The notes beneath the pieces were generated by a model. The model saw nothing but the letters and a program-made list of their open reading frames with translations. It did not search any database and had not been told where the DNA came from. This document shows, in pieces, positions 6,256 through 15,842 of a stretch of 22,708 bases of DNA. A program made the position numbers and the translations under genes. This DNA is from a virus. The stretch spans positions 1-22,708 of the IMG/VR virus record IMGVR_UViG_3300030331_001847, one strand, 5' to 3'. Every line of letters begins with the position of its first letter. Within the stretch, counting starts at the first letter, position 1.

Positions 6256-6447
6256 CTAACTTTGCTGTTTTACAAGATCAACTTCCTGGCGTTCTGGTCG
6301 CTCAATTTTTACACTGTTGGGAGCTTCAAAAAGCAAACGCACTTGGTTTCTATCTATACGAGCTACTGTGACTAATACAGAAGTATTGTCATCTAGATAA
6401 ACAAGAACTTGTTCATCTATTTTTCTGGTTAAGACTAAGCCACTCAT
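6256..6447 (-). CDS. csrA: CsrA/RsmA-like RNA-binding regulator
   Basis: This 63-residue protein matches CsrA along its length: an N-terminal strand LVLTRK (Leu6, Thr7, Arg8, equal to the Leu4-Thr5-Arg6 RNA-contact strand of E. coli CsrA), an acidic turn, the central RNQVRLLFEAP segment (E. coli GNQVRIGVNAP), and VKIERPE, where Arg50 sits at the position of the RNA-binding Arg44. Its size is the family norm. CsrA dimers bind GGA-containing hairpin loops in mRNA leaders and block or stimulate translation. The start codon follows the polymerase stop codon directly (TAGATG) with no good ribosome site, so it is probably translated by coupling. A phage copy could regulate late phage genes or take over host carbon and virulence control. 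Homology is near certain; the phage role is inference. Confidence 0.9.
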   Translation of the reverse strand: MSGLVLTRKIDEQVLVYLDDNTSVLVTVARIDRNQVRLLFEAPNSVKIERPERQEVDLVKQQS

Positions 6448-9491: not shown

Positions 9492-10460
9492 TTACGCTAC
9501 CTCCTCTTGGTTTAGGTTCCTGCTTTCCCATTCTCGCTTGTCTTTGTCCCACCATCGTTTCCAATACCGACCAGCGCCGTCATGCGAATCAACTTGTTTG
9601 AGGAACAACTCAAGCACGGTCACAGCCATAGGGATATCGAAATCAGTTACTGCTTCGTAAATAGGTGGGCCAAAGTCACCGAGGCATGGTGAAGTTACAC
9701 TGGTTTGGTGTGGATGTATTTGACCACGCGTCACATAGCCAGAAACTCTGTCATCGCGGTTGATTGCTCTGAACCTGACTTCGGCACTGCCATATGTGTG
9801 ACGGATAAAGTCAACAGACATACCAGGTATGTTGATAAATATGTTGTCATCTTCATCAGCACACTCTTCGAATGTGCGGCTTTCGAGTTCTACGTTGATG
9901 ACTTTAGCTTTAAGTGGTTTTGTACGAAGTGTGAATTTGTATTTGAAGACAGCGGTTGAATAATCGCTAGTAAATTCTCGAACCTTTAGTGATTTGGGAA
10001 CATAGATAGGGCTGTCTTGTAGCATGTGATCCCATACATCTGTGGAGTACACAGTTGGCTTTTGGTTTTTGATTTTTAGTTTTAGCTTAGCATTCTTTTT
10101 GTTGAAGATAGTTTGCTTGCGATTATTATATGATTCTTGGTTATCAGAAATGGACTCTTGAGATCTTTGATACGCATGGGATAGATCATCAAACTGCTTT
10201 TTAATTCGCTGTTCGATGAGTCCAGCAAGCACACTGTTACCGCCAGCTACCTTTGCATAGTCCCAGTAGCTGTTGTTTTTTATAGCATGTTCAATGCTTT
10301 TCATAGCTCTCATTGCTTTAGCAGAATCGATGCTGAGCTCTCGCCAATAGTCTCTGTGGCTTCGCATTAGTTTTTCTTCTGTTGCTATCTCTGCTTCCAG
10401 ATTCTTGATAGCTTCAGTGTGTGGAAATATTTCGAATGTTTTGAGTAATGTACCGGGCAT
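9492..10460 (-). CDS. Putative E2-like (ubiquitin-conjugating fold) protein
   Basis: This 322-residue protein starts behind GGAGG inside the end of the JAB gene. Residues 15-130 are helical and Lys/Glu-rich (likely coiled coil). The last third has a strand, then QIHPHQTSVTSPCLGDFG (His249-Pro250-His251, Cys259), then a helix LELFLKQVDSHDGAG and an aromatic end (RYWKRWW). An HPx motif eight or so residues before a Cys-Leu pair, followed by a helix and a small 'D..DG' turn, is the active-site layout of E2 enzymes and their bacterial relatives, which carry the modifier on that Cys. Its place in one operon with a modifier, E1 and JAB supports the call. The call rests on motif and context, not on a search. 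Confidence 0.65.
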   Translation of the reverse strand: MPGTLLKTFEIFPHTEAIKNLEAEIATEEKLMRSHRDYWRELSIDSAKAMRAMKSIEHAIKNNSYWDYAKVAGGNSVLAGLIEQRIKKQFDDLSHAYQRSQESISDNQESYNNRKQTIFNKKNAKLKLKIKNQKPTVYSTDVWDHMLQDSPIYVPKSLKVREFTSDYSTAVFKYKFTLRTKPLKAKVINVELESRTFEECADEDDNIFINIPGMSVDFIRHTYGSAEVRFRAINRDDRVSGYVTRGQIHPHQTSVTSPCLGDFGPPIYEAVTDFDIPMAVTVLELFLKQVDSHDGAGRYWKRWWDKDKREWESRNLNQEEVA

Positions 10461-10463
10461 TGT

Positions 10464-11342
10464 TTACAACCTCCAACCTTGTTGTGTGTAAGTTTCTTCA
10501 TCCATGTACTCTTCCAAGAACATGTCCTTTTCCTGTTTTGTCATTTTGTTGAACTCTTCTTTTGTTACTTCAATCGGATTACCGTCAACATCGTAGAAAG
10601 TTTCTGACTCTTCGTCATAAGGTGAGTAGCCACCGTAGTGTTCGAATAAGGTAGGTTGAGGTGTAGGAAGTGTTGAATACGATTGGACTCTGCCAAGCGT
10701 CCCAAGAGAGAGTTGAGGAGTGATTACTGTTTTTTGTTTCTTGACATTTTCTTTGATTGTTTCATCAAGATAGTCTGTTAGATGTTTAGGTAAGGGCTCA
10801 GGGACAGGACCATTTGATACGCATTGATGTATACAGTTCTGGTCTACATCATATACATCAACCTTGGACTGATTGCGCTTGTTGTAGATACCACGAATAA
10901 ATAGCTTGCAGCCACCGTCAAGGAACTCCTGCATTTGTATCTCGTCCTGGCGTGATGGACTTACGCCCATGTTTACATGCGAGTGACCCCAGTAGATAAG
11001 CTTGTCTGACTCTTTGCCTAGCGATTCCAGGTGGATAGCCAAGTCAGCCATTGCTTCTGAACTGATGTCTGTTTCTGCACCGCTGACAGTCTGCTCAGGC
11101 ACATAGATGTCTGTGACCGTAAGCTCTGTAACGATGTCATCTTTGTTTCTTTTTGTTTCAACAAGGCCAAGCCAGCCAACCTCGGTAGATACTTTTGCAA
11201 TAAGGTATTGGATTGACTGCCAGGCGTACTCTTCGTAATAGACTTTCGGAGCTTTGGGAAATGCCCATTCGTACATCTGCTCAGTTTCAGGACTGTCAGA
11301 TGTAGAATCGAAATGTACTTGAGTTGGTTTTTTCTTTTTCAT
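10464..11342 (-). CDS. JAMM/JAB metalloprotease (deubiquitinase-like isopeptidase)
   Basis: The start at 11342 overlaps the E1 stop by four bases (ATGA); a longer in-frame form would run deep into the E1 gene. The 292-residue product has all JAMM zinc-site residues: Glu54 in TEVGWLG and GHSHVNMGVSPSRQD, which gives His120, His122, Ser130 and Asp133 in the H-x-H-x7-S-x2-D pattern. The site therefore looks catalytically intact. In bacteria, JAB proteins encoded next to E1 and modifier genes trim the modifier C-terminus or remove it from targets. The C-terminal 120 residues lie beyond the JAB core and look linker-like then acidic (EEFNKMTKQEKDMFLEEYMD); they may bind a partner. Confidence 0.9.
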   Translation of the reverse strand: MKKKKPTQVHFDSTSDSPETEQMYEWAFPKAPKVYYEEYAWQSIQYLIAKVSTEVGWLGLVETKRNKDDIVTELTVTDIYVPEQTVSGAETDISSEAMADLAIHLESLGKESDKLIYWGHSHVNMGVSPSRQDEIQMQEFLDGGCKLFIRGIYNKRNQSKVDVYDVDQNCIHQCVSNGPVPEPLPKHLTDYLDETIKENVKKQKTVITPQLSLGTLGRVQSYSTLPTPQPTLFEHYGGYSPYDEESETFYDVDGNPIEVTKEEFNKMTKQEKDMFLEEYMDEETYTQQGWRL

Positions 11343-12043
11343 ATTTTGTCTCTGGTAGCTAGCATCATGGGTTTGAAGAACACATCCAGCTGTGCCGTGG
11401 CACACCCGTCATCAAGCAGGAAGTTCATAAACTCCCACACTGCAAGGTTTGCAATGAGTGATGCGGTAGGGCCAACTGATATGTTAGTACCGCAAGGAGA
11501 TACTTCACCCTCGTCATCACTGATGAGAGAGTCATACCAGTTTTGTAGCTGGGCTGTGTTAGTTGGAGAGAAGTGAAACACGTTGCCATGTGTAGATGCC
11601 ATGCGTGTTTCGAAGATTTGGAATAGTTCGCTGTTAGCTGATTTGTCTTGCGCATCCACAATCTCACGGCGAGATGCCATTGTGTCAGTCAGCAAAAACA
11701 AGAAGCCAGTAAACTGTCTGTCTGTGACCCGCTCGGTATGGAACTCCATGTGAGTTTGATCGGCAGATACGCCAAGCTTTCTCTCAGCCAAGTCACGTAA
11801 GCCCCAGACTTTGGGTTGGTTGATGTGTTTGTTGAAGTAAGCCTGATTAGCCAGGTTGTGTGCTTCGACAATATCGTAGTCATACACTTTGATATTGGTG
11901 AAACCCAACTCGACTAGTGCCATGAACACTCGAGAACCCGTAGCACCTGCACCAACAATATTGATTGGGTAGTTGTTGTAGTCATCGGCACGGATAATAG
12001 AATCATGTCGGATGGTCGATAGTAGAGCCATATGCTTTCCCAT
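11339..12043 (-). CDS. E1-like ThiF/MoeB-family adenylyltransferase
   Basis: This 234-residue protein has the ThiF nucleotide fold: GAGATG at 31-36, VYDYDIVEAHNLANQ at 53-67 (Asp55 and Asp57, Asn63, Gln67), and TDTMASR at 119-125, where Asp120 matches the Mg-binding Asp of MoeB. SPCGTNIS holds Cys184, which could be the thioester cysteine. The usual zinc CxxC pairs of MoeB are absent and the protein is compact. It should adenylate the C-terminal Gly of the small modifier encoded just upstream and pass it on. The Arg usual after Asn in the E1 'NLNRQ' motif is replaced (NLANQ). The ribosome site at 12043 is weak; an ATG four codons later is an alternative start. Confidence 0.88.
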   Translation of the reverse strand: MGKHMALLSTIRHDSIIRADDYNNYPINIVGAGATGSRVFMALVELGFTNIKVYDYDIVEAHNLANQAYFNKHINQPKVWGLRDLAERKLGVSADQTHMEFHTERVTDRQFTGFLFLLTDTMASRREIVDAQDKSANSELFQIFETRMASTHGNVFHFSPTNTAQLQNWYDSLISDDEGEVSPCGTNISVGPTASLIANLAVWEFMNFLLDDGCATAQLDVFFKPMMLATRDKI

Positions 12044-12060
12044 AGTTGATTGAAGTTAGA

Positions 12061-12141
12061 TCTTCCTGCATAGGGGGAGTAATAGACGCTTGCACAAAAA
12101 GGACTAGTCAAAAGAACAAACGCCTGCCCTATGCAGGAAGA
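12061..12141 (-). repeat. 15-bp perfect inverted repeat with 51-base loop between modifier and E1 genes
   Basis: TCTTCCTGCATAGGG at 12061-12075 is the exact complement of CCCTATGCAGGAAGA at 12127-12141. The pair fills the gap between the modifier stop (12164) and the E1 start (12043), so the transcript can fold a long stem just before the E1 gene, which itself lacks a good ribosome site. There is no T run after the stem. A translation or processing switch that sets modifier above E1 is a reasonable guess. Confidence 0.7.
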
Positions 12142-12163
12142 AACCAAAGAGTGCGGTCAGGTT

Positions 12164-12379
12164 TTAGTTACCTTTGGCACCCTGAGCTACAACAACTCGG
12201 TCGCCATCAGCCAGAGTATGACTTGTCTCAACAGTCTCTGCACCGACTTTGATGGTTTCCGAACCGCTTGGCTCAACGCCAGCTGCGCTGAGTGCATCAG
12301 CAACAGTAGCTCCAGAAGACAGAGCAACCTCTGTCACCGCACCAGGGATGCGGATTACTTTGACGAGTATTTCGTCCAT
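12164..12379 (-). CDS. Ubiquitin-like/ThiS/MoaD beta-grasp modifier protein
   Basis: This 71-residue protein starts behind AGGAGGT and has the ThiS/MoaD pattern: two N-terminal strands (ILVKVIRIPG and TEVALSSGATVADAL leading into a helix), then ETIKVGAETVETSHTLADGD, where 'L.DGD.V.V' is the hallmark before the last strand, and the tail VVVAQGAKGN. Such proteins are activated by an E1 at a C-terminal Gly and carry sulfur or are joined to other proteins. This copy ends Gly-Asn instead of Gly-Gly. With E1, JAB and E2-like genes directly downstream, protein conjugation is more likely than cofactor synthesis; no thiamin or molybdopterin genes are nearby. Confidence 0.88.
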   Translation of the reverse strand: MDEILVKVIRIPGAVTEVALSSGATVADALSAAGVEPSGSETIKVGAETVETSHTLADGDRVVVAQGAKGN

Positions 12380-12419
12380 GTGATACCTCCTGTATCTTGT
12401 GGCAGTTTGGAGGATTTAC

Positions 12420-15407: not shown

Positions 15408-15842
15408 TTACGCCACCTCCTGACGTAGTTTTGGGTTTTGTATCATTAGGACACGAATGAATAAGCCTTTCTTCTCAGCTATCTCAATCATGTGTTTAGT
15501 GCCTTTGGACTTACCGTCCCATATTGCAATAAGCGCATCTGCATTGTCAGCCATCTGAACATTGCGTCGATAGCCAGCAGACTTGCCATAAAGATCCCAG
15601 TTTGCAGGGAACTGCTCGATCTTGAAATCACGATGCTTTGCATATGCTTCACCGATTCTGTCTGAGCCACGAGCCGTGCCTGATAAGACAGTGATTTGAT
15701 GATGCTTTGCCTTCTCCGAGAGAAGCTTATCAAAGCGGGGAGTGAGATCACGAAGCATTAGATTAGGACTTGCAGGAAGCTCACGAGAACCAGCAATGAT
15801 TACTCTGAATGGTGAAGGGAAAAGCTCGATTTGATTTTGCAT
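15408..15842 (-). CDS. DUF2493/YspA-like SLOG-family nucleotide-binding protein
   Basis: This 144-residue protein starts behind AAAAGGAG and matches the DUF2493 layout: VIIAGSRELPASPN (GSR at 18-20), LSGTARGSDRIGE at about 53-65, FPANWDLYGKSAGYRRN at 78-94, and NADALIAIWDGKSKGT at 100-115. This is a Rossmann-like SLOG fold predicted to bind nucleotides or nucleotide-derived ligands and often found in phages and defence loci; its exact reaction is unknown. It is the first sizeable gene after the repeat cluster at 15,907-16,222, so that cluster is a good candidate for its regulation. Confidence 0.9.
   Translation of the reverse strand: MQNQIELFPSPFRVIIAGSRELPASPNLMLRDLTPRFDKLLSEKAKHHQITVLSGTARGSDRIGEAYAKHRDFKIEQFPANWDLYGKSAGYRRNVQMADNADALIAIWDGKSKGTKHMIEIAEKKGLFIRVLMIQNPKLRQEVA

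Follow-up and report, generated by a model that had tools for sequence, protein, structure and literature searches.

Bacterial ubiquitin-like conjugation is mainly known as an anti-phage weapon, and the locus described here raises the question of whether a phage can run such a system of its own. It lies in the phage record IMGVR_UViG_3300030331_001847, of which a stretch of 22,708 bases (the window) was analysed. An initial annotation of this DNA had read four consecutive open reading frames (ORFs) of the minus strand, at positions 9492–12379, as a complete ubiquitin-like module. All four are present at these coordinates: a ubiquitin-like modifier (12164–12379, 71 residues), an E1-like adenylating enzyme of ThiF fold (11339–12043, 234 residues), a predicted JAB/JAMM metallo-isopeptidase (10464–11342, 292 residues) and an E2/UBC-like protein (9492–10460, 322 residues). 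We interpret the cassette as a phage-run, reversible system of ubiquitin-like protein tagging, a reading to which we assign a probability of about two in three. The identity of the genes (for the E2 a probable one), their conservation and linkage, the beta-grasp fold and the active-site residues are established here.

The four-part module is real and conserved. All 16 close relatives from IMG/VR carry these four genes and keep their order (in one of them, L010, the modifier is cut by the contig end), and the same DNA polymerase gene adjoins the cassette wherever this was checked. The ratio of non-synonymous to synonymous substitution rates (dN/dS) is 0.05–0.27 for the modifier, E1 and JAB (0.05–0.20 for E1 and JAB) and 0.3–0.5 for the E2-like protein; all four genes are under purifying selection. 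The order conserved in 16 contigs, the low dN/dS and the invariant catalytic residues therefore indicate that the cassette is more than a product of chance.

The E1 matches the Pfam family ThiF (PF00899) with an E-value of 4.5e-20 and 72 bits (cut-off 28.1), and has the fold, the GxGxxG motif, the Asp and Arg/Lys residues of the ATP site and the catalytic Cys of the E1/ThiF superfamily. Residues G31, G33, G36, D55, D57, N63, Q67, K78, D120, R147 and C184 are invariant or nearly so among 22 diverse phage E1s of 25–78% identity. The protein is a lone ThiF domain, with neither a rhodanese nor an E2 fusion. The JAB protein stays below the threshold of Pfam Prok-JAB (13.3 of 25 bits), and its active site is intact, as had been claimed: it reads H120-S-H122-x7-S130-x2-D133 plus E54, is invariant in 11 sequences, and the JAMM motif is again present at most of the diverged loci checked.

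The modifier meets the Pfam family Ub-Mut7C exactly at its 23.0-bit cut-off (7.5e-5). Its AlphaFold2 model, with a predicted local distance difference test score of 88, has a beta-beta-alpha-beta-beta order followed by a disordered tail, and is matched in Foldseek/VIA by Caldiarchaeum ubiquitin, SAMP1, MoaD and TtuB. As modelled, it is a beta-grasp protein closest to the conjugatable or sulfur-carrier ubiquitin-like proteins (Ubls). Across nine relatives the modifier is 60–82% identical and its C-terminal tail, G-A-K-G-N, is invariant.

The E2-like protein is composed of a variable N-terminal coiled coil (residues 15–131) and a UBC-like domain (136–322), which contains the motif H249-P250-H251-x7-C259-L-G-D-F. 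The distance of 10 from His to Cys is the same as in the eukaryotic HPN...C site, and the HPH-x7-C motif is kept across little-related phages: it reads HPHVLNNGKPCFGDF in L033 and HPHILGNDEPCLGDF in L180, to be compared with HPNINANGNICLDIL in yeast Ubc4. The AlphaFold2 model shows the coiled coil, a four-strand meander, a flap of low confidence, Cys259 and helices, and this predicted order of secondary structure is that of the UBC fold. Among close relatives the coiled coil is 25–30% identical, against 48–67% for the UBC-like domain, in which 28 of the 30 invariant residues fall; the catalytic motif is invariant, the remainder of the protein being 26–46% identical. The E2-like ORFs of diverged phages are about 280 to 1,608 residues long, and their N-terminal regions are dissimilar. 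Two E2-like proteins also occur side by side, at L081:2877–5377 and L034:980–4241; in the L081 pair, one protein has the HPH without the catalytic CLG and is possibly an inactive partner.

The chemistry, step by step, is inferred from these parts, as are the target and what the phage would gain. The JAB protein would trim the C-terminus of the modifier, in the window perhaps only by the last Asn; trimming would clearly be needed in relatives where the tail precedes a Lys-rich extension or a second modifier domain. The E1 would adenylate the mature C-terminus and take the modifier onto Cys184, from which it would be handed to the E2-like protein at Cys259; the HPH flap there would be analogous to the eukaryotic HPN flap. 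The initial annotation had singled out these two cysteines for mutation, rightly so. Directed by its N-terminal coiled coil, the E2 would then join the modifier to an amine of the target, and JAB would also remove the tag. The coiled coil is plausibly the target-facing, fast-changing part of the protein, and probably sets the choice of target. The setting of the cassette among replication genes points to action early or midway through infection, for example the alteration of a host or phage replication or defence protein, rather than to a part in virion assembly.

Several observations weigh against this reading, and most of them concern the E2. The protein has no family match in Pfam, NCBIfam or PHROG, nor have 29 diverse E2-like proteins in Pfam and NCBIfam. 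The whole E2 model, searched in Foldseek and VIA, returned only coiled-coil matches and no UBC chain, an outcome that does not speak against a UBC fold because the helical N-terminus fills the match list. The program hhalign aligns the E2-like and UBC active sites in register with borderline significance, the match being equalled by one of 300 column shuffles and 19 of 200 block shuffles. Single E2 proteins, used as queries against viral contigs and phages, found nothing, whereas an alignment-based search succeeded. The fourth protein is thus a probable, not a proven, E2, a call that rests on the motif, its spacing, the order of secondary structure, conservation and the borderline profile match, and that is the weakest of the four identities. 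The E2 claim of the initial annotation accordingly holds for motif, structural order and conservation, and finds no counterpart in fold or family libraries. Of the checks that it had proposed, profile searches identified the E1 and, at the cut-off, the modifier, leaving JAB below threshold and the E2 without a family, and structure prediction gave a beta-grasp modifier and a UBC-like order in an E2 model that found only coiled coils.

The remaining difficulty is the modifier tail, which had been overlooked in an otherwise partly sound interpretation, as had the reshuffled versions of the cassette in many unrelated phages. The modifier ends in GAKGN in the close clade, with one extra Gly in two members, and not in Gly-Gly. 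To our knowledge, every characterised Ubl has Gly at its mature end. In the one bacterial case tested, Cap2 accepts Gly or Ala at the C-terminus of the protein that it attaches, and conjugation is lost when the C-terminal Gly of cGAS is replaced by Ser, Val, Arg or Trp (PMC10097602). Because Cap2 rejects these residues, the -GN end in the window must be trimmed or is unusual; a tail of this kind thus predicts either maturation by JAB or an unusual reactive end. Removal of the last Asn would expose a Gly in the window modifier; relatives end in AKSA or KxDNA. Further variants are AKGNV in L031, AKGNS in L177, IKGNL in L105 and, in L033, AKGN followed by a Lys-rich extension. At L035:6740–7192 a single ORF contains two modifier domains, each ending in AKGN, in a manner reminiscent of polyubiquitin or of an ISG15-type precursor. 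The extensions after the conserved short tail motif in L033 and L035 fit precursors processed by JAB. In L180 (IMGVR_UViG_2914811602_000003), tandem modifier genes (2470–2688 and 2771–2986) lie near the E1, JAB and E2-like genes, and their products end in AKSAS and AKSAA, without Gly. A set that we call rumen-type, a label of convenience and not a statement of sample source, has tails KxDNA or KxNNA; its modifier profile and that of the window clade match each other (hhalign, 3e-6). In the ParB-related, ThiF-related cassette (PRTRC), the Ubl PRTRC_C ends in GAKG plus an extension, or in GTKG. In view of the L180 and KxDNA tails, the idea of a mature Gly end, drawn from this PRTRC-like G-x-K-G, is kept tentative. 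In many members (AKGN, KADN-A) Asn ranks with the best-conserved positions of the tail and, judging from these sequences, could even be the reactive end; a precedent is the ThiF-like MccB, which acts on the C-terminal Asn of a peptide in microcin C.

Bacterial operons of E1, E2, JAB and Ubl genes have been predicted in five types, in addition to the lambda K/I pair (Iyer et al. 2006, PMC1779556). Like the cassette, Bil (BilABCD, ISG15-like) has separate Ubl, E2, JAB and E1 genes and a Ubl processed by JAB (PMC11354881). However, BilA contains two Ubl domains, against one in the window modifier (two in L035); the BilB active site is CEHH, with His after the Cys, whereas in the window His-Pro-His precedes it; BilD comprises an inactive and an active adenylation domain and a Cys domain, whereas the window E1 is a single ThiF domain of 234 residues; and Bil is a host defence, whereas the cassette is encoded by a phage. 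Judged by the description in PMC11354881, the one-domain modifier, the 234-residue E1 and the HPH-x7-C site place the cassette outside Bil. Type II cyclic oligonucleotide-based antiphage signalling systems (CBASS) likewise combine E1 and E2 chemistry with a JAB peptidase (Cap2/Cap3), the tagged protein being joined through its C-terminal Gly or Ala. There, Cap2 is an E2–E1 fusion that tags the CD-NTase, whereas the window has separate genes and a beta-grasp modifier. The E1–E2 profiles of PADLOC match only the ThiF part of the window E1, and no CD-NTase was found among the proteins scanned; by these features the cassette is not a type II CBASS. It probably works like CBASS and Bil despite falling outside their definitions.

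The phage Ubl/JAB pair of tail assembly, K (JAB plus NlpC/P60) and I (Ubl) of lambda and T1, differs in that the cassette has an E1 and an E2, has no NlpC/P60 domain or adjoining tail genes, and lies beside a DNA polymerase gene. Scans of the cassette proteins against Pfam and NCBIfam gave no match to NlpC/P60 or rhodanese domains. Gene context and domain content thus rule out an origin from the K/I tail genes, and the contrast that the initial annotation had drawn between those genes and a replication setting, with polymerase and primase nearby, is borne out. With the eukaryotic and archaeal ubiquitin systems (Uba1, Ubc4, Rpn11; the Caldiarchaeum ubiquitin operon) the cassette shares a predicted HPN-type flap, the His-to-Cys spacing of 10, a JAMM site and the beta-grasp fold. 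In contrast to them, it has no Gly-Gly, no RING E3 was identified, and its E1 is a minimal ThiF protein without the Cys, UFD or second adenylation domain.

The modifier is as MoaD/TtuB-like as it is ubiquitin-like, JAB proteins also occur in siderophore-type ThiS operons (PMC1779556), and the ThiS adenylyltransferase ThiF is among the best matches of the E1 to curated NCBIfam models, with 54.6 bits, well short of the cut-off of 159. All this would suit a sulfur-carrier or cofactor pathway, in which a ThiS/MoaD-like modifier is trimmed by JAB and converted by the E1 to an acyl-adenylate or thiocarboxylate, as in the operons of the pyridine-2,6-dithiocarboxylic acid/quinolobactin siderophore type, and the fourth protein is a sulfur acceptor enzyme or a scaffold. 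We consider such a pathway unlikely: scans of the cassette proteins and of neighbours turned up no rhodanese, cysteine desulfurase or metabolic enzyme, the E1 carries no rhodanese fusion, the product of the fourth gene shows an HPH-x7-C site with the spacing and order of UBC, and the tails are AKGN, AKSA and KxDNA rather than -GG. The cassette might also serve counter-defence, as a decoy or by deconjugation, with the modifier, E1 and JAB titrating or reversing host conjugation of the CBASS or Bil type instead of tagging targets of the phage. Host Cap2/Cap3 and Bil do act against phages by the same chemistry (PMC10097602, PMC11354881), and a phage JAB could strip their conjugates; yet neither an intact E1 site nor purifying selection on a modifier with its matching E2 would be required of a decoy, and the modifier tail is unlike known host tails, which makes this use of the cassette very doubtful.

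PRTRC, a system of plasmids, comprises a Ubl with a GxKG tail, a JAB, an E2-like protein and a ThiF, and is found on mobile elements and in at least one phage; type 6d of Iyer et al. has a PRTRC-like composition, with the E2 His after the Cys (PMC1779556). The cassette might then be a remote PRTRC-type module that shares whatever role in replicon maintenance PRTRC has. The kinds of enzyme are the same, the G-[AT]-K-G end of PRTRC_C recalls the GAKG-N of the window, and the Ubl-E2-JAB-E1 order of several diverged cassettes mirrors PRTRC C-B-A-ThiF. Against this, the window E1 scores 26 bits with the ThiF model (TIGR03736, cut-off 144.75), the A (TIGR03735), B (TIGR03737) and C models give no match, and profile comparison of window and PRTRC gave none for the Ubl, JAB or E2. 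Moreover, in PRTRC_B the conserved His-Pro follows the Cys, whereas in the window it stands before, and no ParB, E or F genes of PRTRC were identified. The models do recognize a phage-borne case: the Burkholderia phage BgVeeders33 (L102), which served as positive control, passes the curated A, B and ThiF cut-offs and carries a true PRTRC module. A PRTRC-type identity is quite improbable for the cassette, and the BgVeeders33 module implies that phages have taken up more than one type of such cassette.

How far the proposed tagging cassette extends among phages was addressed by a profile-guided search, which yielded 74 phage E1 loci. A JAB gene lies nearby in 50 of 58 diverged E1 loci (E<=1e-3), several of the others being cut by contig ends. 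The genes are reshuffled: the order Ub-E1-JAB-E2 of the window recurs in L033 and L180, and there are at least three others, Ub-E2-E1-JAB (L031, L032, L177), E2-JAB-E1-Ub (L034–L036) and Ub-E2-JAB-E1 (L092, L104, L105, L108 and other loci). The Xanthomonas jumbo phage PhiXhv-15 encodes an 892-residue protein with HPH...CLG beside its E1, and Dulem virus 41 is an annotated relative by E1. Contigs of metagenome-assembled genomes gave none in a first scan and seven in a second, several with the full cassette; these are probably phage contigs. In the cultured phage crAss001 (L094, NC_049977, gp75–gp78), the ThiF protein gp76 and gp77, annotated as a metalloprotease and JAB-like, are preceded by a candidate E2, gp78; all three are flanked by the primase (gp80) and the uracil-DNA glycosylase (gp74). 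Relatives of gp78 occur in 45 phage records, and a close homologue in PhiCrAssBcn18 carries HSH...PCTG. At the motif, the candidate E2s of the crAss001 type and of Dulem virus 41 fail to align with the window E2, and they are tentative; for gp78 this follows from its PhiCrAssBcn18 homologue. In cassettes of the rumen/gut type, a conserved companion ORF of 130–210 residues stands just before the modifier (L043:2747–3199, L092:1557–1997 and similar); it has no family match and occupies the place of PRTRC protein E.

The novelty lies in a class carried by phages, in its new E2-like family and in the unusual tails of its modifiers, the kinds of enzyme themselves being known. Tentatively, and with more doubt than confidence, this class may be widespread and previously undescribed, reaching from podovirus-like, gut, rumen and jumbo phages possibly to crAss001, and marked by the new E2 family, variable targeting domains and a modifier activated at an end other than Gly-Gly. 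A literature search found no paper on phage-encoded E1-E2-JAB-Ubl systems; it did not cover key Bil/Bub work, so an earlier description is possible. If the tagging mechanism is correct, the roles are reversed, and phages tag proteins during infection by means of a complete, conserved and many times reshuffled cassette, which would also put a large family of minimal E1-E2-JAB systems with unusual tails at the disposal of mechanistic studies. If the tentative assignment of crAss001 gp76–gp78 holds, the question can be tested in a laboratory-grown phage.

Regarding the layout of the cassette, a strong GGAGGT ribosome site (12385–12390) lies 5 nt ahead of the modifier ATG. The E1 and JAB genes share the 4-nt ATGA overlap noted previously (E1 stop 11339, JAB start 11342), and 3 nt separate JAB from E2; an alternative E1 start, also ATG, lies four codons downstream of the annotated one. 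The 120-nt gap between modifier and E1 contains a perfect 15-bp inverted repeat (arms 12061–12075 and 12127–12141, 51-nt loop), possibly an attenuator or RNA element that keeps the modifier in excess over E1. Inverted repeats of different sequence occupy this gap in L001 and L002, and none was found there in L005 and L007.

The neighbours of the cassette are the genes for polymerase, CsrA and primase. The window also encodes a large terminase, a P22-type portal (6e-119), a family A DNA polymerase, a primase-helicase, a PD-(D/E)XK nuclease and an SNF2 helicase. The CsrA homologue (6256–6447, minus strand; PF02599, 9.9e-12), a phage-borne RNA-binding global regulator, lies between the DNA polymerase and the primase and is found at the same position in nearly all close relatives. 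Finally, a SLOG-family protein (YAcAr, PF10686, 5.9e-10) is encoded at 15408–15842 on the minus strand; SLOG is a family of nucleotide-ligand-binding proteins with a frequent link to stress or defence.

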